Program-made: the position numbers and the translations under genes
In this document: positions 32,318-43,634 of the stretch, one piece after another
Position numbering within the stretch: position 1 is the first letter of the stretch
Layout of the letters: each line of letters opens with the position of its first letter
NCBI GenBank assembly: GCA_002238485.1
Contig: MPMG01000004.1
Span: 186,001-250,000 of the forward strand
DNA: 64,000 bases
Source of the DNA: Chloroflexi bacterium bin20
GTDB lineage: Bacteria > Chloroflexota > Anaerolineae > Aggregatilineales > Phototrophicaceae
Direction: 5' to 3'
Notes under the pieces: model-generated
Told to the model about the DNA's origin: nothing
What the model saw: the letters and a program-made list of their open reading frames with translations, nothing else
Databases searched by the model: none

Positions 32318-33286
32318 TCAGCCGAGCAGCCGAAACAGCATGGCTTTCCAGCGCGCCGCATCCAGATTCCAGCAGATGGAGGGTTTGCGCCGTGCACCCA
32401 GGGCAGCGCGCCAAACAGATTGATTGCGCTCGTCCGCCGCCACATCCAGCTTGTCGACGACCGTCATGCCGCGCGTCAATTCGCTGTCGCATTCTACATC
32501 CAGCGCATGCTGGCTCGACCTGCCGCAGATGGACGGGTTGATCGCCACGGCCATAGCCACGCCATCGGGCAGCGAAATGCCGATCTCGCCAGTCTGTACT
32601 TCATAGCCGCGCATGCCTTTGATGTTGGAATCAATTGCGAAATCTGCAAAGGGACTGCCCAGGCCGCGCAGCGCCTCGATGTCTGCCAACGAAAGCACGA
32701 AAGGTCCCTGGCTGAACTCCCAGCCGACCATTTCAATCGGCAAGCCCGAGCGAAAGACGATTTGCGCCGCTTCTGGGTCGCACCAGATGTTGTACTCGGC
32801 GGCCGGCGTTACATTGCCGTTGGTGCAGGCTGCTCCGCCCATGATCACGCAGCGGTCGACGCGCTCGACAATATCCGGGGCTTTGCGCAGCGCCAGCGCC
32901 AGGTTGGTCAATGGACCCAGTGTAACAATGGTCAGGTCGCTGGTAGCGCGCGCCAGGTCGATGATGGCGTCGACAGCGTGTCCCGGTGCGGCTTTCGTGC
33001 GTCGCGGCACATACCGGTCGCCCCAGTCGCCCAAACCATCCGCGCCATGAAACCAGTCGGCGCTGACAAATTCGCGCAGCAGCGGACGATCTGCGCCAGC
33101 ATATACGGGCACATCGGCAGCGCAGAACTCGACGAAGTAGAGCGCGTTTTGCAGCGCTTGCCCGAGCGGCACATTGCCCGCCACGGTCGTGATAGCCCGC
33201 ACATCGACATCAGGCTGCCGCAGCGCCATGACTATGGCCACTGCATCGTCCGAGCCGGCGTCGGTATCGATCAAGAAGGGGCGCAT
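32318..33286 (-). CDS. Nucleoside hydrolase (inosine-uridine preferring family)
   Basis: 322 residues. The calcium-binding DTDAGSDDA motif follows the initial MRPFLI; the second family block AGNVPLGQALQNAL and MGGAACTNGNVTPAAEYN, with the active-site Asn and Glu, are complete. It splits nucleosides into base and ribose. ATG at 33286 lies inside the 3' end of the MalY-like gene (16-bp overlap), so it is translated as the last cistron of the sulfur operon. A paralogue with very similar blocks is at 60726-61649. Confidence 0.93.
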   Translation of the reverse strand: MRPFLIDTDAGSDDAVAIVMALRQPDVDVRAITTVAGNVPLGQALQNALYFVEFCAADVPVYAGADRPLLREFVSADWFHGADGLGDWGDRYVPRRTKAAPGHAVDAIIDLARATSDLTIVTLGPLTNLALALRKAPDIVERVDRCVIMGGAACTNGNVTPAAEYNIWCDPEAAQIVFRSGLPIEMVGWEFSQGPFVLSLADIEALRGLGSPFADFAIDSNIKGMRGYEVQTGEIGISLPDGVAMAVAINPSICGRSSQHALDVECDSELTRGMTVVDKLDVAADERNQSVWRAALGARRKPSICWNLDAARWKAMLFRLLG

Positions 33287-34452
33287 AGCTGCTCCAACGC
33301 GGCCCGCAGACGCCCCAGCCCCTCTTCCAAGACGGCGCGTGGACAGCCAAAGTTCAGCCGCGCAAAGCCGGAATAAGCCGACCCAAAGAATGTGCCCGGC
33401 GATGGCGCGACTCCGGCCGTCTCGCGACAGAAGTCCATCAAATCGCCTTCTATGGGCAGACCGCGCATATCCAACCAAAGCAAGTAAGTGGCTTGGGGAA
33501 CGGTGGTTTTGACCCCTGGCATGTGCTTGCGGATGTAGTTAATGGCGAAGTCGCGATTGTCCTTCAGATATAGGAGCAGCTGCGCAAGCCACTCATCGCC
33601 GCCGCAATAGGCGCCATGAGCCGCCGCATAGCCCATGATGTTGACATGGGCGCTGATGCTCTGCAGCGCCGCCGCCAGCTGCTCACGCAGTTCGGGATTT
33701 TGGGCGATGAGCACCGAGCAGGCCAAGCCAGCCAGGTTGTAGGTCTTGCTGGGCGCGATCATGGTGATGGTGTTCTGGGCGATTTCGTCCGACAATGTGG
33801 CGATAGGAATGTGCTGCCCTTCCAGGATGAGGTCGGAATGAATCTCGTCGGCGATGATGAGCACATTGTGGCGCAGGCAGATCTCGCCGATCGTTTCCAG
33901 TTCGGCGCGCGGGGTGATGAAGCCGGCCGGGTTTTGTGGGCTGCACTGCAGGTGGATCGATGTCTGGGGCTCGCGAGCTACTTGCTCAAAGGCGTCATAG
34001 TCATTCTCGTAATGAAAGGTATGCGCATCGTCGGCGACATAATCCATATCTATGCTGACGGCGAACTTACGATTGGCGCGAGCGGCTTTGAAGAAGGAGC
34101 CATACACGGGAGTCTGCATCAAGACGCCATCGCCGGGGGCGCCAAACTCACGGCAGACAGCGCACAATGCCAGCACCATGCCCGGCGAAAACAGCACATC
34201 CTCGGGCCTTATCTCCCAATTGTAAAGGCGGCTCATGCGCTCGACGACCGCCTCTTTTAGCTGCGGCGGATCGAGCGTATAGCCGAATACACCATGCCGA
34301 GCGCGGTCTATCATGGCTGCTATGGCGCTAGGTGGCGAGCGGAAATCCATATCGGCGACCCACATGGGCAGGCAGTCGCCTTCGACCAAGCTCCATTTGG
34401 CGCTGCTGTGATGGCGGCGGTCAATGATTTCGTCAAAATTGTATTGGGTCAT
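33271..34452 (-). CDS. MalY/PatB-type PLP C-S lyase (cystathionine beta-lyase-like)
   Basis: 393 residues. MalY/PatB subgroup of class I aminotransferase-fold enzymes: LPMWVADMDFRSPPS at the N-terminus, QCSPQNPAG, ADEIHSDLIL and the PLP lysine in IAPSKTYNLAGL. Subgroup members cleave cystathionine or cysteine C-S bonds, giving homocysteine or sulfide. Position in the sulfate-assimilation operon fits the cysteine to methionine step. ATG at 34452; 80 bp separate it from the sulfotransferase gene. Confidence 0.93.
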   Translation of the reverse strand: MTQYNFDEIIDRRHHSSAKWSLVEGDCLPMWVADMDFRSPPSAIAAMIDRARHGVFGYTLDPPQLKEAVVERMSRLYNWEIRPEDVLFSPGMVLALCAVCREFGAPGDGVLMQTPVYGSFFKAARANRKFAVSIDMDYVADDAHTFHYENDYDAFEQVAREPQTSIHLQCSPQNPAGFITPRAELETIGEICLRHNVLIIADEIHSDLILEGQHIPIATLSDEIAQNTITMIAPSKTYNLAGLACSVLIAQNPELREQLAAALQSISAHVNIMGYAAAHGAYCGGDEWLAQLLLYLKDNRDFAINYIRKHMPGVKTTVPQATYLLWLDMRGLPIEGDLMDFCRETAGVAPSPGTFFGSAYSGFARLNFGCPRAVLEEGLGRLRAALEQLCAPS

Positions 34453-34532
34453 GGGCTGGCTTTCGCGTGGGCGGTCGGTTGCGGCACTATACCCGATTCG
34501 CCCCGCCAGCGCACTGGTGGTTTCGTTTGCCG

Positions 34533-35270
34533 CTACCAGAATGCCGTCCAGAATTGCGCCTGCTTCTCTTGGCGAAAGCGCTGCGTCCATTGTTCTGCTA
34601 ATTCGCCACCTACTGGCTGATGTCTCGCTGCGGGGACCTGGAAGTCGGCTGGACGCTGGATATCCAGAAAGTCGAGAATGCGCAGAATGGTCGCATCCAT
34701 CTGCTGCACGAAGTCTTCATAGACCAGTTGCAGGGGGATGATGCCGTTGTCAGCGAAGTAGTCCGCCCAGACTGCCTCGCGGAATGCCAGCTCTTGCAGC
34801 AGCGTGTCGATAGCGGCGAAGTCGTACTGTGGCGCCGGATTAGTGACGGTTTGCCGCGAACTCCAGCGCCCGCTTTGGATAGCCAGCCAGTGCGAAACCG
34901 CCTGTCTCGCTTTGTTGCGCCGCGTCAAGTGAATGTAGCGCAAGTCGGGGAAGCAGCGGTCGAGCGCCTCTCGCAGCGGCAGGTCAGCCAGAGTTCCGAT
35001 GTCCAGCAGACGCCGCGCGAAATCGCTCCAATAGCCGCCACCGATCTTGCTGCCAAAGATGCCATTGGCTGTGCTATCGGAATATAACGCGCCAGCAATG
35101 TAGGCATGGTAGTCGGCAATCGGGTCTCCGCGCGGATTGTCGGGCGAGATGCTGTGATAAAAGCGCTCTTGCGGTCTGCCCGCCAAGCCAGTATCAGTCA
35201 GAAGCTGGCAGAGCAGACTGCTGCCGCTGCGCACGGTAAAGCAGATGAAGTAGGACCGTTTTGCGGACAT
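34533..35270 (-). CDS. Stf0-family sulfotransferase
   Basis: 245 residues. The PAPS 5'-phosphosulfate loop FTVRSGSSLLCQLL near residue 12 and the 3'-phosphate segment YIHLTRRNKARQAVS are present, as in mycobacterial trehalose 2-sulfotransferase Stf0. It transfers sulfate from PAPS to a sugar or other alcohol; the acceptor is unknown. It follows the unknown gene by 6 bp within the sulfate-assimilation operon. That makes sense because sulfotransferases draw on the same activated sulfate pool as CysH. Confidence 0.9.
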   Translation of the reverse strand: MSAKRSYFICFTVRSGSSLLCQLLTDTGLAGRPQERFYHSISPDNPRGDPIADYHAYIAGALYSDSTANGIFGSKIGGGYWSDFARRLLDIGTLADLPLREALDRCFPDLRYIHLTRRNKARQAVSHWLAIQSGRWSSRQTVTNPAPQYDFAAIDTLLQELAFREAVWADYFADNGIIPLQLVYEDFVQQMDATILRILDFLDIQRPADFQVPAARHQPVGGELAEQWTQRFRQEKQAQFWTAFW

Positions 35271-35276
35271 CCGCGG

Positions 35277-35855
35277 TTAATCTGCGAACGCCGGCGTTTG
35301 CATAGAGCCTGCCAGAGAGCGCGCGGCCACACAGCGAAAAGCCAGCAGATAGCGTGGATCGTCATGCAGCCGTTCCAGATGCAGTTTTTCGCCGAAAATC
35401 TCATGCAAACTTGTGGCGAGCGCTTCTTGGGCCGCCTCTGCCACCTTGGCTTGGTTGGGAAACTGCAGCCGATCGAGATAGCTGATTTCCACGGTGTGAT
35501 AAGCAAAGACGATATCGCCTGGCGCTTCGGCTTCCAGCATTTGTGCGGCTTGCAGCGCGCCCTCACAGCAGAGCCGCAGGGCAGCGGACAGATCGTCCGG
35601 CAGCGCGCGCTTGCGTATGTAGCGCAGACCCACCTGCCCCGCGCCCAGATCCCAGGCATAGTCGGCTTCATCGGCGATCAGCACAATGCCGGGACCTTCC
35701 GGCACATGCTTGTAGTCGATCACATCAATCAGCATGCCCGGCACGGTCCGCTGTTGGATCCAGCGCTGGAAGATGGGCACGATATCCGCTGGCTGCAACT
35801 GTGGCGCTCGAGCCAGGCTGAACTTCACAGCCAGTCGTTTGGGAACTGTTGTCAT
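35277..35855 (-). CDS. Conserved-looking protein of unknown function in the sulfur operon
   Basis: 192 residues; I do not recognise the family. The N-terminus is basic (TTVPKRLAVKFSLAR). The middle has PGMLIDVIDYKHVPEGPG and IVLIADEADYAWDLGAGQ, a small alpha/beta protein pattern; the rest is helical with many Ala, Glu and Leu. No cysteine cluster, signal or membrane segment. It lies 78 bp after sulfite reductase and 6 bp before the sulfotransferase, so a role around sulfite reduction or its regulation is likely but not shown. Confidence 0.65.
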   Translation of the reverse strand: MTTVPKRLAVKFSLARAPQLQPADIVPIFQRWIQQRTVPGMLIDVIDYKHVPEGPGIVLIADEADYAWDLGAGQVGLRYIRKRALPDDLSAALRLCCEGALQAAQMLEAEAPGDIVFAYHTVEISYLDRLQFPNQAKVAEAAQEALATSLHEIFGEKLHLERLHDDPRYLLAFRCVAARSLAGSMQTPAFAD

Positions 35856-35932: not shown

Positions 35933-38179
35933 TTAACCGACAATCACGCCATTGATGCGCTGTTCGGCGCTGTGGATATTCTCGATGAATAGCTGCGTTT
36001 CATCGATGATCTGGTGCGCATAATCTTCGTCCAGGCGCACTGGACTGCCAGCATGGCGCTTGAATAGATAGCGCGCGAACTTGCCTTTGGCGAAGCGATC
36101 ATAGACCAGCTCGGTATCATAGAAGCGCTCGCGGAATTCGTTGACGATGCGGTCGCTGTCGTCGCCAACATCCAGGTACTTGGTGCGCACCAGCGCCCGC
36201 GCCGCCAGCACCATTGCGCGGTAAGCCTGCTCGTCTGCGCGCCGATAGTCGCCATCATCCAACGCCAGCAGCGCCTCAAAGTGCGTCGACTCGGCTTTGG
36301 ATATCTCCATGGAAAAGAGCGAAACCACTTCGCCAGCGCATTCGCCGACGCCGATATCATCAATCGTATACACGCGCGAATCGCCCCAGTCGCTGAAGAA
36401 AGCTGGGTTTTCTTCGAATGTCGGCAGCTGCATATAGGGCTTCAGCATGGCTTTGATTTCTTTGCGCCCCAGCTGCTTCACCCAGCTTTGGAAGTTCTCG
36501 TCCTCGGCGCGTTCGGCGACATAACGCTCGGTCAGCGCAGCCAGCACTTCGGGCACAGCCTTGGCGGGAACAGCCCCAACAGCCAAGCCATAGCTGCCGG
36601 CATTCTGCTGCCACTGCCCGCCCAGCACGACCTGGAAATGCGGCAGTTTGTGATTGCCGCTGCGCCGACTGTTGCCGAAGAAGCCAATGTCCGCCACATG
36701 GTGCTGCCCGCAAGAATTGAAGCAGCCGCTGACTTTGATTTTCAGTTCGCGCACGGCATCGGGCAGCAGGTTGATGCGCTCGATCAGGCGCGTGCGCAGC
36801 TCGGCCGTCAAACCGCGCGACGAAGCGATGCCCAGCTTGCAGGTGTCGGTGCCGGGGCAGGTGGTGATATCGACGATGGTGCCGGCGTGGGCGTCGCCCA
36901 GTCCGATTTCGCGCAGGTCGCGGCAGAGCGCCGGCAAGTCGGCATCTGCCACCCAGCGCAAAACGATATTTTGCTCGACCGTGAGGCGAATGTTGTCGCC
37001 GACATATTTGCGCGCGATATCCGCCAGCGCAAAGCCTTGCTGCGCCGTGAAGTCGCCCAGCGGACTGTGCAAGGTGACGACGCTGTAACCGGGCTGGGCC
37101 TGGCGATAGACATTGCTGCGATACCAATCGTCAAAACCCTCGGGCAGTGGCGCGCCATTGAGCTGCATGCCCGCTTTGGCTGGGTCATAGATGAAGTCGT
37201 CCACGCTTTCCAGGTAGGCGGTATGGCGTGGATCCTGCGGCAGCGACTCCAGCTCTGCTTCGACCAGGTGGCGGAATTCGTCTATGCCCAGCTTGGCGAC
37301 CAAGAATTTGAGGCGGGCGCGGTTGCGGTTTTTCTTTTCGCCCAGGCGGGCAAATACGCGCGCGATCGCCTGCGTCAGTGGCAGCAGCTCTTCGGGCCTG
37401 ACGAACTCCGCCAGCGCCTTGGCTTGATGCGGGACTGTGCCCAGGCCGCCACCGACAAATACCGTGAAGCCTCGCTGAATCTCGCCAGCGACTTCGCGCG
37501 ATTGAGCAAGCAAGCCCAGGTCGTGCATTTTGACCAAGCCGCAGGCCTGCCCCGCGCAGCCAGAAAAAGCCACTTTGAATTTGCGTCCGAAATCTTGCAC
37601 ATCGTCGTGCGCCAGCAAGAATTGTGTCATGGCATCGGCGTAGGGGCTGACATCAAATGCCTCGTCGTGGCAGACACCCGCCAGTTGGCAAGCGGTGATA
37701 TTGCGCACGCTGTTGCCGCAGGCTTCTTGGGTGGTGATGCCCACCGCCGCCAGCCGCCGCATCAAATCGGGACTGTCGTCGATGTGCACATAATGCAACT
37801 GGATATCTTGGCGCGTGGTGATATGCAAGATGCCATCGGCATATTCGTCGGCCAGCTCTGACAACACTTCCAGCTGCCGCGCGCTCAAGCCGCCGTAAGG
37901 AATCTTGATGCGCTGCATGCCGGGCGCGTCCCAGAGCGTGTCGGGACCCTTGACGATGTCGTCAGATGGATATGCCAGCGATTGGGTGCGGACGCCATCG
38001 TGGCGCTGGCCATTGTCATAGCGCTGCCCATAGACGCCTTTGCGCAGGCGTGCCTCGGCAAAGACTTTCTCGTCCATTTTGCCTTGTTGACGCAGCGACA
38101 TCTGCGCCTCGTAGATGTCGATGAGCTTGGCCATTTCGAGCGGAATCTCGTCTTTGAGTCGTTCTTTCCAGCTGGTCAT
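35933..38179 (-). CDS. Ferredoxin-type assimilatory sulfite (nitrite) reductase with C-terminal helical extension
   Basis: 748 residues, clearly longer than the usual 550-650. Two siroheme-reductase repeats are present. The siroheme/4Fe-4S ligands are C-x5-C in TCPGTDTCKLG (near residue 440) and C-x3-C in SGCFNSCGQHH (near 488). It reduces sulfite to sulfide (or nitrite to ammonia) with six electrons. The final 140 residues are an all-helical region resembling HEPN-like tails. The place behind cobA, the chelatase and cysH argues for sulfite as substrate. ATG at 38179. Confidence 0.92.
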   Translation of the reverse strand: MTSWKERLKDEIPLEMAKLIDIYEAQMSLRQQGKMDEKVFAEARLRKGVYGQRYDNGQRHDGVRTQSLAYPSDDIVKGPDTLWDAPGMQRIKIPYGGLSARQLEVLSELADEYADGILHITTRQDIQLHYVHIDDSPDLMRRLAAVGITTQEACGNSVRNITACQLAGVCHDEAFDVSPYADAMTQFLLAHDDVQDFGRKFKVAFSGCAGQACGLVKMHDLGLLAQSREVAGEIQRGFTVFVGGGLGTVPHQAKALAEFVRPEELLPLTQAIARVFARLGEKKNRNRARLKFLVAKLGIDEFRHLVEAELESLPQDPRHTAYLESVDDFIYDPAKAGMQLNGAPLPEGFDDWYRSNVYRQAQPGYSVVTLHSPLGDFTAQQGFALADIARKYVGDNIRLTVEQNIVLRWVADADLPALCRDLREIGLGDAHAGTIVDITTCPGTDTCKLGIASSRGLTAELRTRLIERINLLPDAVRELKIKVSGCFNSCGQHHVADIGFFGNSRRSGNHKLPHFQVVLGGQWQQNAGSYGLAVGAVPAKAVPEVLAALTERYVAERAEDENFQSWVKQLGRKEIKAMLKPYMQLPTFEENPAFFSDWGDSRVYTIDDIGVGECAGEVVSLFSMEISKAESTHFEALLALDDGDYRRADEQAYRAMVLAARALVRTKYLDVGDDSDRIVNEFRERFYDTELVYDRFAKGKFARYLFKRHAGSPVRLDEDYAHQIIDETQLFIENIHSAEQRINGVIVG

Positions 38180-38235
38180 GTTGCTTTCGTCCCTTCTACA
38201 ATTTGCAAAGCGCTTAGCGATAGTCAATAGGTCAT

Positions 38236-39000
38236 TCACGCCAGGCCTGCCAGTTGTGGCAGCAGGTCGTACCAGGCGATGCCTTCATCGCGCAGGCGGA
38301 CCACCTCGCCAACCACGGTGATAGCGGGCGGACGGATGCCGTTCTCACGGGCAACAGCGGCGATATCATCCAACGTGCCGGTCACTGTACGTTGGCGGGC
38401 TGTCGCGCCCCATTCGATGACAGCGGTCGGTGTATCGGCGGACATGCCAGATAAAAGCAGCTTGTCGGTGATATTGGGCAATTGCTTCACGCCCATCAGA
38501 ATGACGATGGTGCCGCCCAGCCTCGCCAATGCCGCATAGTTGAGGCCTTGACCTATTTCGTGCCCGGTGATGACGGTGAAGGCGCTGCTGATGTGGCGCT
38601 GTGTCAAGGGGATGCCGGCATAGGCGGGCACAGAAATCGCGCTGGATACGCCCGGCACCACTTCAAATGGAATGCCCAGGCGATGACAAGCCAGCGCTTC
38701 TTCGCCGCCACGGCCAAACACGAATGGATCGCCGCCTTTCAGCCGCAACACATCCAGCCCAGCCAGCGCTCGGTCGATGATTAGCGCATTGATGGCTGCC
38801 TGCGAGAGGCGGTGACGCGTTGGCGCTTTGCCGGCGTTGATCAGCTCGGCATCGGATCGCGTCTCGTCCAGCAGCTGGCGCGGGATCAGGCGGTCATACA
38901 TGACCACATCCGCTTCCCGCAACAGTCGCAAACCCTTGCGCGTGATCAGGTCGGGGTCGCCAGGGCCTGCGCCCACCAGGAAGACTGTGCCAATGGTCAT
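38236..39000 (-). CDS. cobA: Uroporphyrinogen-III C-methyltransferase (SUMT)
   Basis: 254 residues. SUMT signatures: VFLVGAGPGDPDLITRKGLR at the N-terminus, the YDRLIP motif, LRLKGGDPFVFGRGGEE and VVPGVSSA. It methylates uroporphyrinogen III with SAM to give precorrin-2, the siroheme precursor. The ATG at 39000 has GGAG 5 bp upstream and overlaps the chelatase stop by 4 bp; an in-frame GTG six bases upstream is too close to the ribosome site. It serves sulfite reductase encoded next. Confidence 0.97.
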   Translation of the reverse strand: MTIGTVFLVGAGPGDPDLITRKGLRLLREADVVMYDRLIPRQLLDETRSDAELINAGKAPTRHRLSQAAINALIIDRALAGLDVLRLKGGDPFVFGRGGEEALACHRLGIPFEVVPGVSSAISVPAYAGIPLTQRHISSAFTVITGHEIGQGLNYAALARLGGTIVILMGVKQLPNITDKLLLSGMSADTPTAVIEWGATARQRTVTGTLDDIAAVARENGIRPPAITVVGEVVRLRDEGIAWYDLLPQLAGLA

Positions 39001-40316
39001 GCGCACTCCTTTTCAAACTTGCGGGCATTTATCAGCCACCAGTTGCAAGCCACGCGGCAAGGCAACTCACCGTCCACGCCATGCCAGGTCGGCTGACGCA
39101 CACAAGCGCCGCAGATCTCGTGGATGGTCCGCTGAATCACAGACCGGGGCAGCCGCTGGATATCGTTGAACATGCCGTCTTGCCGCCCGCCGATATCCGC
39201 CAGCGACTCGGTTTGTAGCGCGCCACGCCGCTGCGCCGACCAATCCGCCACCAAGCCCGGATAGACCGTCTCCAGCACAGCATGCGCATCGACCGGCCGA
39301 GCCAGGTCCACATGCCAGCCGCCGGGCAAATCCACCCGCGTAGGCAAAGGATGAAATGCCCTCTCGCGCAGCAGAGATCGCAAGGCAGACGGCGAGTGCA
39401 GAGCCTGGTTGTCGCTGTTGTCGGCAGGCCAGACTCGTTCGCGATTGAGGCAGATCTGCCCAAATCGCAGCATTTCGCCCTGCTCCAGCGCCGCTAGCAA
39501 GTCGCGCCTGCCCGCCGTGGGGAAGCCATCCCAAGCGCCGCGATCGGCTTGCCTTGCAAAGGGCAGCCCGCTCGTCCGCGCCAGCGCCAGAATGACATCG
39601 CAGACCGATTCGTCTGTGCCGACAGGCTCGGCAAAATACACGCATCTGTCGCGCACGCTCTCGCCTCCGCCAGTGCCAGTGATGCCCAGCGCGCGCGGCA
39701 GATCCCGTCTGACATGGCTGCCATCGGCGAGGAAGTAGGGCAAGGCGATGATGTGCCTGGCGCGTGTCCGCCTGTAGATGCTGGGGATATCGGGCTGGTC
39801 ATCCAGGTAGCAATCGACGATCTCGGCAAACCAGCCCATCGCGGCGATGCGTTGAGATTGGCGGCGGGTGGCAGCGCGGCTTTGTGGGTTGCGGCGCGTG
39901 CCATGCCCGATGATGGCGACGGCAGTCTGGGCAGGCGTCAGATTGTGCGCGGCGGCCATGTCGCTCAGGCGCTGATCGACAACGGCGTCCAGCAGCGGAT
40001 GCTCGCCGATAGGCGCTGTATAATGAAGGCCTTTGTCGCCGATGCGTGTCGTTGTGCCGCGCAAGCCCATTTCAGTCGGGATAACCTGGCTGGTGAAATA
40101 GCCATTGGCAGTGAAGAGCGGCACGATGACCACCTGGGTCGATTCCAGAGCGACCAGCGCTTGTGAGAAAGTCGGCGGCTCTTTCCAGAAGCAGGCGGTG
40201 ATCTCATCAGCCACGCCTATTCGCCGCAAGCGATCGACATAGCCCCAGACGATGCCCGCCGTGTTGGCGCTGATGTGCGAGCCGTGACCAGCCAGCACGA
40301 GAGCGACTCCACTCAT
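38997..40316 (-). CDS. CbiX/SirB-like chelatase with DR2241-type 4Fe-4S C-terminal domain
   Basis: 439 residues. Two CbiX-like halves: VLAGHGSHISANTAG with the catalytic His, and a second VAIIGHGTRRNPQSRA around residue 140. The last 170 residues differ from CbiX and end in a C-x2-C, C-x3-C set (ICGACVRQ and CRVACNWW), as in the Deinococcus DR2241 group that binds a 4Fe-4S cluster. Located between the dehydrogenase and methyltransferase of siroheme synthesis, it is the likely sirohydrochlorin ferrochelatase. Coupled by 4-bp overlaps on both sides. Confidence 0.87.
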   Translation of the reverse strand: MSGVALVLAGHGSHISANTAGIVWGYVDRLRRIGVADEITACFWKEPPTFSQALVALESTQVVIVPLFTANGYFTSQVIPTEMGLRGTTTRIGDKGLHYTAPIGEHPLLDAVVDQRLSDMAAAHNLTPAQTAVAIIGHGTRRNPQSRAATRRQSQRIAAMGWFAEIVDCYLDDQPDIPSIYRRTRARHIIALPYFLADGSHVRRDLPRALGITGTGGGESVRDRCVYFAEPVGTDESVCDVILALARTSGLPFARQADRGAWDGFPTAGRRDLLAALEQGEMLRFGQICLNRERVWPADNSDNQALHSPSALRSLLRERAFHPLPTRVDLPGGWHVDLARPVDAHAVLETVYPGLVADWSAQRRGALQTESLADIGGRQDGMFNDIQRLPRSVIQRTIHEICGACVRQPTWHGVDGELPCRVACNWWLINARKFEKECA

Positions 40317-40963
40317 TCTGCCGCGCCCTCCTGGACGATGCGCTCAAAGTGGCGACGCGCCTGCTCAGTCTGCCCCTGGCGCAGCAAAGCCAGCACATCC
40401 GATGCCAGCACGCGCCGAACCACTTGCTGTCTTTGTGGCTGTGTGCTGCCGTTCCCGCCGGTTTCGCGCAAGTCGCCCAGCCAGTCCGCCAGCGTCGCCC
40501 AGTCTTCTGCCAGTTCATCCGCCAGCCGTGCTTTCATCAGCTGCAAGAGCGCCGGTGATTTGCCCTGGCTGCTGAGCGCGATGGTCAGTGGCGGCTGATC
40601 AATCTGCGCCATGTTGCTGAAGTCGCTGCGCTCGCTGCTGCCATCGGCGACATTGCACAATGCGCGGATGCGATGCGCATCTTGCGCCACCACTCGATTC
40701 ACGCGCGGATCGTCTGTCGCGGCGATGACTAGCACGGGCATATCGCTCTGGAAGCTGTCGCGCTGGTAGCTTTCACGCCGCCACAAGATGTCGCCCGCTC
40801 CAGCCAGTTCTTGCAATTCGTCTGTGGCCTTTGGGCTGATTACCAATATGCGCGCGCCGGCTTTGCGCAGCTGCCGCACTTTGCGAGCCGCCACCCGTCC
40901 GCCGCCAACGACAGCCACCTGCCTGTCATGCAGGTGCAGCATTACTGGATAGCCGCTAGCCAT
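40313..40963 (-). CDS. Precorrin-2 dehydrogenase (Met8/CysG N-terminal-like)
   Basis: 216 residues. NAD-binding VAVVGGGRVAARKVRQL, then VIAATDDPRVNRVVA and the CNVADGSSERSDF segment with the catalytic Asp region of Met8/CysG-B; the helical TIALSSQGKSPALLQLM part follows. It oxidises precorrin-2 to sirohydrochlorin. The methyltransferase domain found in full CysG is encoded separately as cobA. It overlaps cysH by 8 bp. Confidence 0.93.
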   Translation of the reverse strand: MASGYPVMLHLHDRQVAVVGGGRVAARKVRQLRKAGARILVISPKATDELQELAGAGDILWRRESYQRDSFQSDMPVLVIAATDDPRVNRVVAQDAHRIRALCNVADGSSERSDFSNMAQIDQPPLTIALSSQGKSPALLQLMKARLADELAEDWATLADWLGDLRETGGNGSTQPQRQQVVRRVLASDVLALLRQGQTEQARRHFERIVQEGAAE

Positions 40964-41663
40964 GAAAAGCTGCCTCGGCTGGCGCGGGCAGGTGGATGCC
41001 GCATTCGGTTTTGCTGTGGCGCGTCCAACGTCCGGCGCGGCCGTCGTCTGCTACAGCATGCGTGCAGGTCCAGCAGCCGATGCTCGGATAGCCCTGGTCG
41101 TGCAGGTCGTTGTAGGGCAGTCCCCGCGCGTGGATCGTTTCCCAAACTTGCGATTCTGTCCAATTGGCGAAAGGCGCGAACTTGATCAGCCCGCTGCGCC
41201 GATCGCGACTGACAATCGGTGTATGGGCGCGGCTGGCAGACTGATCGCGCCGCAAGCCAGCCACCCAAGCCTGGAAGCCGCTCAATGCGCCACGCAGAGG
41301 AATGGTTTTGCGGATATGGCAGCAGCGATCGGGGTTGCGCTCCCACAAGCGGTCGCCATAATCGCGAGCTTGCTGCGCGAGCGTCTGTCGCGCTTTGATG
41401 CGCCGCAAATCCAACCCAAAGCGCTCTTCCAGCTGCGCCATGAGTTCCAAGGTCTCGGGGAATAGCAAGTCCGTATCGAGCGTGAGCACCGGCGTCTGCG
41501 GCGCGATTCGCTGCATCATGTCCAGCGTGACGATGCCGGTAATTTGAAAACTGGTTACGATAGCCAGCTTGCGCCCAAACAAGGCCTGCGCCCGGCGCAA
41601 GATTTCGAAGGGGCTGGCGCTTTCCAATTGTCGCGCCAAGACTTGAATCTGTTCGTTTGTCAT
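40956..41663 (-). CDS. cysH: Adenylylsulfate (APS/PAPS) reductase, Fe-S type
   Basis: 235 residues. Reduces activated sulfate to sulfite using thioredoxin. The cysteine pattern of 4Fe-4S APS reductases is complete: Cys-Cys in PDRCCHIRKTIPL and C-x2-C in IGCWTCTHAV, with the catalytic cysteine in KTECGIHLP. PAPS reductases of the E. coli type lack the first three. First gene of the sulfate-assimilation and siroheme operon; ATG behind GGGAG. Expression is probably controlled by the two cysteine-rich leader ORFs and terminators upstream. Confidence 0.96.
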   Translation of the reverse strand: MTNEQIQVLARQLESASPFEILRRAQALFGRKLAIVTSFQITGIVTLDMMQRIAPQTPVLTLDTDLLFPETLELMAQLEERFGLDLRRIKARQTLAQQARDYGDRLWERNPDRCCHIRKTIPLRGALSGFQAWVAGLRRDQSASRAHTPIVSRDRRSGLIKFAPFANWTESQVWETIHARGLPYNDLHDQGYPSIGCWTCTHAVADDGRAGRWTRHSKTECGIHLPAPAEAAFHG

Positions 41664-41700
41664 ATTGTCTCCCGTTGATTGCTGCGGCTTTCTGCCAAAT

Positions 41701-41732
41701 AAAAAGAGCGCCTCGGCTTATCCGAAGCGCCC
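41701..41732 (-). terminator. Attenuator terminator 2 (cysH leader)
   Basis: On the minus strand GGGCGCUUCGG (41732-41722), loop AUAAG, CCGAGGCGCUC (41716-41706): 11 base pairs with two G-U, followed by UUUUUAUUU. It ends 38 bp before the cysH ATG, so it is a premature terminator and not the end of a gene. Its 5' arm and loop are also the 3' half of an alternative helix with 41776-41786. Confidence 0.88.
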
Positions 41733-41786
41733 TGACCATCGTGCAGGTCCTACCGGCAACATCGCGCCGCCAGCCTCGGATAAGCC
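41715..41786 (-). promoter_or_regulatory. Antiterminator helix of leader 2
   Basis: GGCUUAUCCGA (minus strand, 41786-41776) is perfectly complementary over 11 bp to UCGGAUAAGCC (41725-41715), which covers part of the terminator 5' arm, its loop and two bases of its 3' arm. The two folds exclude each other. The 5' half begins 15 nt after the last codon of the five-cysteine run in leader peptide 2, just past the edge of a ribosome stalled there. Confidence 0.75.
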
Positions 41787-41842
41787 ACCCCCGGTGGGGC
41801 GCAGCAGCAACAACACATACAGACTTGCGCTAGAACGAACAT
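41750..41842 (-). CDS. Leader peptide 2 of the cysH operon, polycysteine
   Basis: 30 codons, ATG at 41842 with a perfect AGGAG five bases upstream, TAG at 41752-41750. The peptide begins MFVLAQVCMCCCCCAPPG, so Cys is at 8 and 10-14, and ends AARCCR with Cys 28 and 29: 8 of 30 residues. This composition and the place before cysH identify a sensing ORF for charged cysteinyl-tRNA. The terminator starts 17 nt after the stop. Codons are both TGT and TGC. It is unlikely to have a function as a peptide. Confidence 0.85.
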   Translation of the reverse strand: MFVLAQVCMCCCCCAPPGVAYPRLAARCCR

Positions 41843-41866
41843 GAATGCTCCTGGCTTTCGCCATCC

Positions 41867-41897
41867 AAGAAAAAAGCCCCGTGCCATGACGGGGCTT
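41867..41897 (-). terminator. Attenuator terminator 1 (between the two leader ORFs)
   Basis: On the minus strand AAGCCCCGU (41897-41889), loop CAUGGC, ACGGGGCUU (41882-41874): 9 perfect base pairs, then UUUUCUU. It lies 32 nt after the stop of leader peptide 1 and 25 nt before the AUG of leader peptide 2. It could also end rho transcripts, but its pairing partner in leader 1 (41940-41947) supports a role as attenuator. Confidence 0.85.
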
Positions 41898-41929
41898 CGC
41901 AATTTCGTTGCTATTTGGTCAAAGTCGAC

Positions 41930-42031
41930 CTAGCACGACGCCACCGCAGGCAAAGGCATATTCTGCATCCGACAACAACAAGCTGCGGCACAATTGAACG
42001 TGGTGGACTGTTCCTGGATCTTTGTGACCAT
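41930..42031 (-). CDS. Leader peptide 1 of the cysH operon, cysteine-rich, apparently leaderless
   Basis: 33 codons, ATG at 42031, TAG at 41932-41930. It begins MVTKIQEQSTTFNC and continues AAACCCRMQN, so Cys is at 14 and 18-20, with a last Cys 33 next to the stop. No ribosome site precedes it; the ATG lies 6 nt after a -10-like hexamer, as for leaderless mRNAs. The three-Cys run sits in the loop of a 7-bp hairpin, GCCGCAG (41989-41983) with CUGCGGU (41949-41943). The second arm can instead pair, as GCGGUGGC with one bulged U, to GCCCCGU of terminator 1. A ribosome at the stop codon would cover that arm. Confidence 0.72.
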   Translation of the reverse strand: MVTKIQEQSTTFNCAAACCCRMQNMPLPAVASC

Positions 42032-42037
42032 GCCCAC

Positions 42038-42066
42038 AGCTTATCGCGGGCAAACCGACCTGTCAA
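42038..42066 (-). promoter_or_regulatory. Promoter of the cysH leader
   Basis: Perfect -35 TTGACA on the minus strand (42066-42061). The -10 is either TAAGCT (42043-42038, 17-bp spacer) or GATAAG (42045-42040, 15-bp spacer). Start at 42031 or next to it would coincide with the ATG of leader peptide 1. It lies 59 bp beyond the rho stop codon; no rho terminator is visible in between. Confidence 0.6.
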
Positions 42067-42124
42067 GGGCAAAATCTGCCTGCTTGCGCACAGCTCGGCT
42101 CAGACCATGCCCAGCTGCATGGCG

Positions 42125-43396
42125 CTAGCGGTAGCCGTTGCTGCCGCTCAAGCTGTTGAGGAAGCTCTGGTTGGTGTCGTGCAGGCGGAAGCTCTGCAGC
42201 AGCATCTCAGTCGCGCCGACGATGCCTTCGGGCTGTTCTGCCAGGTGCGACCACATGCGCCGCATGGTATAGACGCGCTGCAAAACATCGGGACCCAGCA
42301 GCAATTCTTCGCGCCGCGTGGATGATTGTTCGATATCAAAAGCGGGGAAGATGCGCCGCTCTTGCAGCTTGCGGCTGAGGTGCAGCTCCATATTGCCCGT
42401 GCCCTTGAATTCTTCATAGATGACATCGTCCATCTTGCTGCCCGTATTGACGAGGCAAGTGGCGACGATGGTGAGGCTGCCGCCTTCTTCGACATTGCGC
42501 GCCGCGCCAAAGAAGCGCTTGGGCGGGTGAATTGCCTGCGGATCCAAGCCGCCTGACAAGGTGCGACCGCTGGTGGGCACGACCAGATTATAGGCGCGCG
42601 CCAGCCGCGTTACGCTGTCGAGCATCATCACCACATGCCGCTTGACCTCGACCAGCCGTTTCGCTCGTTCCAGCGCCATTTCGGCCACGCGCACATGGTG
42701 ATGCACGGGATCGTCAAATGTCGATGCGATGACCTCGGCATCAACAGAGCGGTCCATGTCGGTTACTTCTTCCGGGCGCTCGCCGATCAACGCGACCATC
42801 AGATGCACATCGGGATAATTGGTGCTGATGGCATTGGCGATATCCTTGAGCACGGTGGTTTTGCCGGCTTTGGGTGGAGACACGATCAAACCGCGCTGCC
42901 CAAATCCGACCGGCGCGATGAGATTCAACATGCGCGTGGAAAATATGCGCGGCACCGTTTCCAGGTTGAAGCGCACTTCGGGGAAGATGGGCGTCAGCCG
43001 TTCAAAGTTGGGACGACTGCGCACTTCACGCGGGTCCAGCCCATTGACCGCATCGACGCGCAGCAAGCCAAAATAACGTTCGCTGTCTTTGGGGGGGCGC
43101 ACCTGCCCGATGACCATATCGCCCGTGCGCAGCTTTAGCCGGTCGATCTGCGAGGCGCTGACATAAATGTCGTTCTTGCCGGGCAGATAGCCTTCGGCGC
43201 GCAAGAAGCCTATGCCATTTTCGGTGACCTCGAGCACGCCGCCGCGCAATTCGTTGCCGCGCCGTTCGGCCTCTTGCCGCAACAATCCGATGATCAGGTC
43301 TTGCTTCTTCAAACGGCTGAAGCGGGGCACATTGCGCTGGCGCGCCATGGTCCGCAATTCGGGCAAGGTCTTTGCTTCAAGTTTTCCAATGTTCAT
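42125..43396 (-). CDS. rho: Transcription termination factor Rho
   Basis: 423 residues. Rho N-terminal helical domain ([20 protein letters not shown]), RNA-binding cold-shock-like domain ([20 protein letters not shown]), then the RecA-like ATPase with Walker [11 protein letters not shown]-loop and R-loop regions ([15 protein letters not shown]), Walker B HVVMMLDS. It unwinds RNA to stop transcription. ATG 43396 is used, 8 bp after AGGA; an upstream ATG at 43405 overlaps the ribosome site. It lies upstream of the cysteine attenuators on the same strand. Confidence 0.97.
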
Positions 43397-43634
43397 GCAT
43401 GTCATCCTGTGTTATTGGTACGCGGCGGGGCTGGGTTCAGTTGCCACGATTTTATGAGCGAATCCTGAGCTGGGTATGGCAGCGAAGCACTCCCTGCATG
43501 GCAAGCACAACGGGCAACAATAAAAAGCAGTGCGCGCTAGGGTATGTCAAGTAGGAAGCCGCTGGCAGGGGTCAGATAGTGGGAATACCGCTTATTAAAG
43601 CACTATACCATGAATAGTTGGCTGCGTCAAATAC

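Follow-up and report, generated by a model that had tools for sequence, protein, structure and literature searches.

Two cysteine-rich leader frames in series, each with an intrinsic terminator and a competing helix, upstream of cysH in a genus of Chloroflexota: predicted tandem transcription attenuators

The leaders of the trp, his and leu operons are the classical ribosome-mediated transcription attenuators. Leaders with two regulatory units in series that read the same signal are also represented among other mechanisms: tandem T-boxes exist and bind tRNA without a leader peptide, and ermB reportedly carries two leader peptides for one antibiotic signal and uses translational attenuation. 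For cysteine, leaderless polycysteine short ORFs of mycobacteria are said to have been described by Canestrari et al. in 2020.

In the passages that deal with them, mycobacterial polycysteine frames figure as cysteine-responsive attenuators (PMC13236596, PMC9031893, PMC9094748). The short sequence-based note from which this analysis started (the original prediction) took polycysteine attenuators to be described mainly from mycobacteria, and this is too narrow, because the relevant parts of two reports describe Cys leaders elsewhere. The uORFC-8-2 motif found before cysS in Rhodobacterales combines a short Cys-containing frame with an intrinsic terminator and is proposed to act by ribosome-mediated attenuation (PMC8632094), and leaders with Cys runs, for which no terminators are apparent, are reported not only before cys operons of Mycobacterium but also, in other Actinobacteria, before cys operons of Propionibacterium and before cbs of Bifidobacterium (PMC1262725). 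As for leaders with more than one stage, the Salmonella mgtCBR leader contains two short frames acting as tandem attenuators for differing signals, ATP and proline, and is termed a singular example in the abstract of that report (PMC3641672); in the section concerned of PMC2965389, the rimP leader of some Gammaproteobacteria is described as having an additional terminator upstream, in tandem with the other. Cysteine attenuators are known, and so are tandem ones. Two leader-peptide stages for one amino acid are not found in print: no such attenuator is named among the matches listed in the open-access literature (mostly titles and the starts of abstracts), nor is cysteine attenuation with intrinsic terminators in Chloroflexota present among the matches listed there. 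In PMC4833913 the Chloroflexi are mentioned solely as a group represented by few genomes, and the word cysteine does not occur in the main text, and the relevant passages of PMC9413887 are on histidine.

The locus described here lies in a 64,000-nucleotide stretch of DNA (the window), which is placed in the Chloroflexota through its cysH, whose named relatives come from metagenome-assembled genomes labelled Anaerolineae, Chloroflexi or Chloroflexota bacterium; all features of the locus are on the minus strand. The phosphoadenylyl-sulfate reductase gene cysH (40956..41663; NF002537, 249.3 bits, cut-off 154) is followed by genes for a siroheme synthase N-terminal domain protein of the cysG-N type (40313..40963; TIGR01470, 130 bits, cut-off 62.3), a sirohydrochlorin chelatase-like protein (38997..40316; best NCBIfam matches, to PRK02395 models and CfbA, below cut-off), a uroporphyrinogen-III C-methyltransferase (cobA/cysG-C, 38236..39006; TIGR01469, 295 bits, cut-off 185) and a nitrite/sulfite reductase-type hemoprotein (35933..38239; NirA-family and CysI-type NCBIfam matches below their cut-offs), which is likely an assimilatory sulfite reductase. 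Because the cysH operon covers the reduction of PAPS to sulfide together with the siroheme cofactor, cysteine is a sensible signal for its control. Downstream of the operon are a frame with no NCBIfam match (35277-35855) and genes that we take to encode a C-S lyase-like protein (PatB/MalY type) and a Stf0-like sulfotransferase (33271-35270, minus strand). On the upstream side is the gene for transcription termination factor rho (42125..43405; NCBIfam PRK09376, 607.8 bits), which is probably a neighbour outside the attenuated unit.

No Rfam family, T-box included, has a match at its gathering score anywhere in the window. A consensus scan of 41600-42150 identifies two terminator-like sites in all (41733-41705 and 41898-41873, both on the minus strand), and is by itself weak, as shuffles of this segment give a mean of 0.9 such sites (sd 1.0). 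The leader taken as a whole has a folding z of -2.26 relative to shuffles, with 2 of 200 shuffles equal to it. Cys-dense frames (10-60 codons with at least 4 Cys in 7 codons) number seven on both strands of the 64 kb; two of the seven are the leader frames described below, and leader 2 is the only one that gets to 6 Cys.

The module next to cysH begins with a 30-codon frame, leader peptide 2 (41750..41842, MFVLAQVCMCCCCCAPPGVAYPRLAARCCR*), with Cys at codons 8, 10-14, 28 and 29; the five-Cys run of codons 10-14 is at 41801..41815 and a Shine-Dalgarno sequence, AGGAG (41848..41852), is located five bases 5' of the ATG. The frame is followed by intrinsic terminator 2 (41699..41733), which is one of the two scan sites and consists of a stem-loop at 41733-41705 and a T-rich tract that stops about 38 bp before cysH (41663); the cysH ribosome site is some 25-30 nt past this terminator. 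A strand within the leader frame, the 5' strand of antiterminator 2 (41773..41786), pairs with 41728-41715, which is the 5' arm and loop of terminator 2. The complementarity is perfect over 11 bp (41786-41776 with 41725-41715) and extends to 14 bp with one G-U pair (41786-41773 with 41728-41715), giving a duplex of -26.9 kcal/mol (RNAduplex) versus -15.6 for the terminator hairpin, an energy that none of 200 dinucleotide-shuffled versions of the upstream strand reaches. Between the two antiterminator strands is a further hairpin (41753..41773; 41773-41768 with 41758-41753), with 94.4% of cells paired in an alignment of 33 loci, and its 3' arm abuts the stop codon of leader 2. The Cys frame with its AGGAG, the terminator 38 bp before cysH and the 11-bp alternative helix that excludes it were all put forward in the original prediction and are confirmed. 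The module is real, but the view of it as a single switch before cysH captures only half of a tandem pair, as an equivalent module is present upstream.

This second complete module (42031-41870) was absent from the original prediction. It is preceded by a candidate promoter (42038..42066) composed of TTGACA (42066-42061), a 17 nt spacer and TAAGCT (42043-42038), which corresponds to the pattern TTGACN-N16..18-TANNNT; its -10 element is poor, and it is absent from a stricter consensus scan of the window. Of 33 genus loci, 30 have a promoter-like element of the same pattern upstream of leader 1. Leader peptide 1 (41930..42031, MVTKIQEQSTTFNCAAACCCRMQNMPLPAVASC*) has 33 codons with Cys at 14, 18-20 and 33, and its Cys run, TGT TGT TGT, is at 41972..41980; the pattern TGTTGTTG[TC] occurs within 140 nt upstream of terminator 1 at all 33 loci. 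The ATG is only 6 nt past the candidate -10, a spacing that is equal in five of five loci of the close clade (L001-L005), and the leader 1 message is therefore predicted to be leaderless. The 5' strand of antiterminator 1 (41940..41952) pairs with 41895-41882, again the arm and loop of the terminator behind it, with an energy of -18.5 kcal/mol that is equalled by 7 of 200 shuffles. Intrinsic terminator 1 (41870..41895) has its stem-loop at 41895-41876 (GCCCCGTCATGGCACGGGGC) followed by TTTTTT; it is one of the two scan sites and has a counterpart at 33/33 loci.

The genus comprises 34 genomes, and cysH is present in 33 of them at 34 places. We refer to the 33 primary loci as L001-L033, and as they are mutually related the counts that follow are not independent. 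The conserved Cys frames and compensatory changes that the original prediction proposed to look for in relatives are both found: the two Cys leaders and the two terminators are upstream of cysH at all 33 loci, and antiterminator 2 contains pairs that have changed on both sides. At none of the 33 have the Cys codons or both helices been lost, though L003 and L004 have a weaker helix 2. In a few loci (such as L013 and L032) the Cys codons of leader 2 do not form an unbroken run but are mixed with other codons, and the U-tract after terminator 2 is interrupted in several relatives. The codons themselves have a bias, with TGT accounting for 132 of the 176 leader 2 Cys codons up to the antiterminator over the 33 loci, compared to 49 TGC and 14 TGT in 12 window genes, a comparison that sets 33 genomes against one.

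A match to rho is present upstream of cysH in 19/33 genus loci, at 0.45-1.4 kb (from roughly 0.5-1.5 kb of upstream sequence examined). The second cysH copy of genome G033 (L034) has neither a Cys leader nor a terminator of this kind. Genome G023 has no cysH match and keeps both modules, positioned after rho and before the siroheme synthase gene (L152; G023:C94, 1150-2291); its antiterminator and terminator strands (GGCTATCC and GGATAGCC) differ from those of the window, yet are still complementary to each other. We infer that in G023 the control region stayed with the operon after loss of its first gene.

Antiterminator 2 ranges from -17.5 to -27.2 kcal/mol in the 33 loci as against -14.4 to -17.1 for terminator 2, and at most 1 of 200 shuffles equals it in 31 of them, the other two being L003 (3 of 200) and L004 (8 of 200). 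Covariation was scored in an alignment of 33 rows (A2). By itself the helix has 95.9% of cells paired, with 3 of its 14 pairs changed on both sides; together with the adjoining hairpin the value is 95.5%, with four pairs changed on both sides (a number that 2 of 500 shuffles reach) and a covariation score reached by 0 of 500 shuffles, and sliding the partner strand reduces pairing to 49.9% or less. The two-sided changes include five pair types at columns 26/104 and a replacement of G-C by A-U at 33/95. At columns 29/99 an A-U pair is changed to G-C in L018, and because column 99 is in the unpaired loop of the terminator form, this change is best explained by the antiterminator and not by the terminator.

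The helix of module 1 is less distinctive. Antiterminator 1 ranges from -11.4 to -21.9 kcal/mol versus -9.2 to -15.5 for terminator 1, is less stable than the terminator in L022, and is equalled by at most 10 of 200 shuffles in 24/33 loci; the nine with more are L002, L004, L017, L022, L025, L026, L029, L030 and L033. The proportion of cells paired is 87.1% and its covariation score is reached by 127 of 500 shuffles, so that covariation is silent here, the helix hardly varying.

Counted from the first base of the last Cys codon, the antiterminator of the window is reached after 22 nt in module 1 and after 17 nt in module 2; in most of the genus the module 2 distance is 20 nt. When the terminator 3' arm is omitted and a ribosome is placed as stalled in the Cys run, the fraction of the terminator 5' arm and loop that is paired upstream is 0.92 in module 2 and 0.84 in module 1, compared to 0.55 and 0.52 respectively when the upstream sequence is shuffled; in 33/33 loci (module 2) and 29/33 loci (module 1) no more than 5 of 100 shuffles are as high as the real sequence. 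Geometry, folding and, for module 2, covariation agree with the proposal that the antiterminator starts just past a ribosome stalled on the Cys codons. The equilibrium picture is different. With the full terminator and a stalled ribosome the terminator wins in most loci, its probability falling below 0.5 in 8/33 loci for module 2 and 5/33 for module 1 (0.47 and 0.55 respectively in the window), and with the ribosome at the leader stop the probability is at least 0.94. Folding with a blocked Cys run, as the original prediction suggested, displays the expected pairing while the 3' arm is unmade and fails to do so at equilibrium in most loci. Equilibrium folding of the full leader was also tried as a display of the switch and set aside, as most relatives gave no switch, and the leaders were refolded without the terminator 3' arm. 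Since the terminator wins at equilibrium even with a stalled ribosome, the switch, if real, must be kinetic; kinetic switching is usual for attenuation.

Taking the two Cys frames, the two terminators and the two competing helices, with their order, their conservation and the compensatory changes in antiterminator 2, as established at the level of sequence, we put at about 85% the probability that 42066-41699 contains two serial cysteine leader-peptide modules which act as ribosome-mediated transcription attenuators and turn the cysH operon on only when charged tRNA-Cys is scarce. Transcription would start at or near the leader 1 ATG, so that leader 1 would be translated as a leaderless message, and translation of leader 2 would rely on its AGGAG. 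A ribosome stalled in a Cys run would leave the antiterminator strand free, some 20 nt past the last Cys codon, and the free strand would pair with the terminator 5' arm and loop while the 3' arm is still unmade; an unstalled ribosome would run over the antiterminator strand and the terminator would form. The sequence, geometry, conservation and compensatory changes fit the cysteine attenuation model of the original prediction, with the exception that a ribosome at the leader 2 stop would not cover the antiterminator. By coordinates, a ribosome at the leader stop would mask the antiterminator strand in module 1 of the window but not in module 2, where the stop codon (41752) is 20-24 nt past the strand. 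The passage of the ribosome, rather than its parking at the stop, would for this reason be what blocks antiterminator 2, and terminator 2 would win by timing during that passage. With two modules in series, termination would have to fail at both for read-through to occur, and repression would be tighter and the response steeper than with one.

Not all of these features require two switches. Terminator 1 is the first terminator past rho in the window, where one is expected, and antiterminator 1 is the weaker helix, with 7 of 200 shuffles equal to it in the window, more than 10 of 200 in 9 of 33 loci, and no covariation; module 2 might thus be the only attenuator, with terminator 1 belonging to rho and leader 1 representing a chance or decaying frame. 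It seems improbable that this is so, given that leader 1 has kept its Cys codons at 33/33 loci, that the pair of modules recurs in 13 loci of seven genera outside this one, where rho is unmatched in the upstream stretches examined, that a promoter-like element is ahead of leader 1 in 30/33 loci, and that G023 keeps both modules without cysH.

A different kind of control would apply if the hairpins were incidental and ribosomes stalled on the Cys codons exposed the start region of cysH, as in the translation control of mycobacterial polycysteine frames; those poly-Cys leaders that have been studied experimentally are described as translation regulators in the relevant passages of PMC13236596 and PMC9031893. 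Each module of the cysH leader, however, closes with a stem and T-rich sequence, the cysH ribosome site is 25-30 nt past the second of these, and there is covariation between antiterminator 2 and the arm and loop of the terminator, so that we think translation control very unlikely here. We give even less credence to a role of the frames as small functional Cys-rich peptides, for example in metal binding. The peptide sequence is partly conserved in the genus (QGYPGLA, CCCQT), but the antiterminator strand itself encodes the QGYPGLA of leader 2, only the Cys cluster is retained across genera while the stop positions shift, and the cysH leaders have little beyond a Cys run in common with the leader of cysK described below.

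The reading as two serial attenuators extends beyond the genus. The same order contains 56 further cysH loci (L035-L048 and L110-L151, a set that leaves out the partial match G073 and matches below 30 bits), and at 19 of these a short frame with clustered Cys codons is closely followed by a terminator, the 19 loci and their 30 modules having been chosen by eye; no Cys leader was accepted at the remaining 37. Thirteen of the 19 have two Cys frames, with a terminator detected after each in 11, and six have one. The two-frame loci belong to genera g4, g22, g25, g31 and g33 of the same family, g58 of family f7 and g54 of family f8. No terminator was detected for the second frame of L122 or the first frame of L150, and these two are not among the 30 modules. 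A covariance model of module 2 (R1) matches once per genome in all 34 of the genus and nowhere in 120 further genomes of the order, with search filters that are stricter and lose weak matches; as R1 finds none of them, the modules of the other genera are unrecognisable by sequence.

What most of these modules share is position. In 24 of the 30 outside the genus, the upstream strand that pairs best with the terminator 5' arm and loop begins 18-27 nt beyond the last Cys codon, counted from its first base, where 5.4 are expected from shuffles (Poisson-binomial P about 2e-13); the range was set after the distances were known, module 2 of the window at 17 nt falls just outside it, and three class-level modules, all of them misses, are left out (24/33 with them). 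By energy, 12 of the 33 modules (30 from the order and the 3 at class level) pass p 0.05 and 5 pass 0.01. At about this distance the strand would lie free of a ribosome that has stalled on the last Cys codon. The two tandem terminators of L117 share an identical 22 bases, which hints at duplication of, or conversion between, its modules.

At the level of the class, 40 loci outside the order include three, from another family of the class, with a Cys frame and a terminator (L154, L156 and L178). In these the short frame has a Cys cluster of the CxCxC type and a very strong terminator is located about 90 nt past the stop, and no antiterminator helix is found at the usual distance. Nine loci of another family of the class (L159-L166 and L169) have a conserved Cys/Ser-rich frame upstream of cysH, with SSSxCLCxTSSCC near its end and no terminator found behind it, which may represent a Cys (and Ser) leader of another type. 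Two Cys frames are present at L170, again with no terminator found, and the frame at L182 was rejected as a Cys leader.

Other cysteine genes of the genome were searched for similar leaders. The best cysK-type gene (L193, below the curated cut-off) is preceded by the leader MKACTCCCCPWQMSGA* and by a long terminator that ends with six T. A gene of this type is present at E 1e-60 in 32 of the 34 genus genomes, and among the 30 loci analysed (drawn from L193 and L204-L232) all 30 have a poly-Cys frame upstream of cysK and all 30 a hairpin (-21.6 to -42.8 kcal/mol) with T after it. The layout is unlike that of cysH: in 15/30 loci it is the Cys-codon run that pairs with a complementary strand downstream, and in 10/30 a downstream strand pairs with the terminator arm (at most 10 of 200 shuffles equal in each case). 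A lone poly-Cys leader akin to those of cysH likely controls cysK. Neither sat (L201) nor a second cysK-like gene (L194) has an acceptable Cys leader, and a cysE model search gave weak matches only. A genome-wide search for four consecutive Cys codons was swamped, with 131 matches (62 forward and 69 reverse) versus 15 for a reversed-pattern control; the cysK leader is one of the matches listed.

The closest described systems can now be compared with the cysH leader. As in trp, his and leu, a leader peptide contains codons for the amino acid of the pathway and is followed by an intrinsic terminator and an exclusive antiterminator located just past the stalled ribosome; unlike those, the cysH leader is predicted to sense cysteine, has two complete modules in series and is found in Chloroflexota. 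It resembles the mycobacterial frames, as those are portrayed in the passages cited above, in its contiguous Cys codons upstream of genes and, in the close clade, in the predicted leaderless state of leader 1, whereas leader 2 has a Shine-Dalgarno AGGAG and each cysH leader is followed by an intrinsic terminator and competing helix in place of the translation control described there; no conserved terminator hairpins are reported for the mycobacterial regions in the part of PMC1262725 concerned with them. The uORFC-8-2 motif, as outlined in its report, has two adjacent Cys codons, a single module and an aminoacyl-tRNA synthetase gene downstream, in contrast to the Cys runs, two modules and sulfur assimilation genes at cysH. 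Salmonella mgtCBR likewise has two short attenuator frames in one leader, but its hairpins, by that account, are unlike intrinsic terminators, whereas both cysH frames have Cys runs and intrinsic terminators. Tandem T-boxes and ermB also have two regulatory units in series for the same signal; the former have no leader peptide and the latter is translational and responds to an antibiotic, whereas the cysH modules are predicted to be of the leader-peptide transcription type.

A more far-reaching interpretation, which we offer tentatively and would not bet on at even odds, is that Cys-tRNA is read twice, first by a leaderless stage and then by one led by a Shine-Dalgarno sequence, and that the effects of the two multiply to give a near digital cysteine switch; with the cysK leader this would amount to an RNA-only cysteine regulon that is old in this order of Chloroflexota, takes the place of a protein repressor, and has persisted or been rebuilt in one genus after another with unrelated sequences. 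If the two serial attenuators are correctly identified, cysteine attenuation with intrinsic terminators would extend to the Chloroflexota, and the cysH leader would be a natural case in which one amino acid is sensed by two serial leader-peptide attenuators. Serial attenuation would be a simple design with low leak and a sharp response, and variants with unrelated sequences and a similar geometry of about 20 nt would allow a comparative test of the ribosome-footprint rule. Several of these Chloroflexota are, from their isolate prefixes, presumably associated with sponges, and the modules suggest how these bacteria may control sulfur assimilation.
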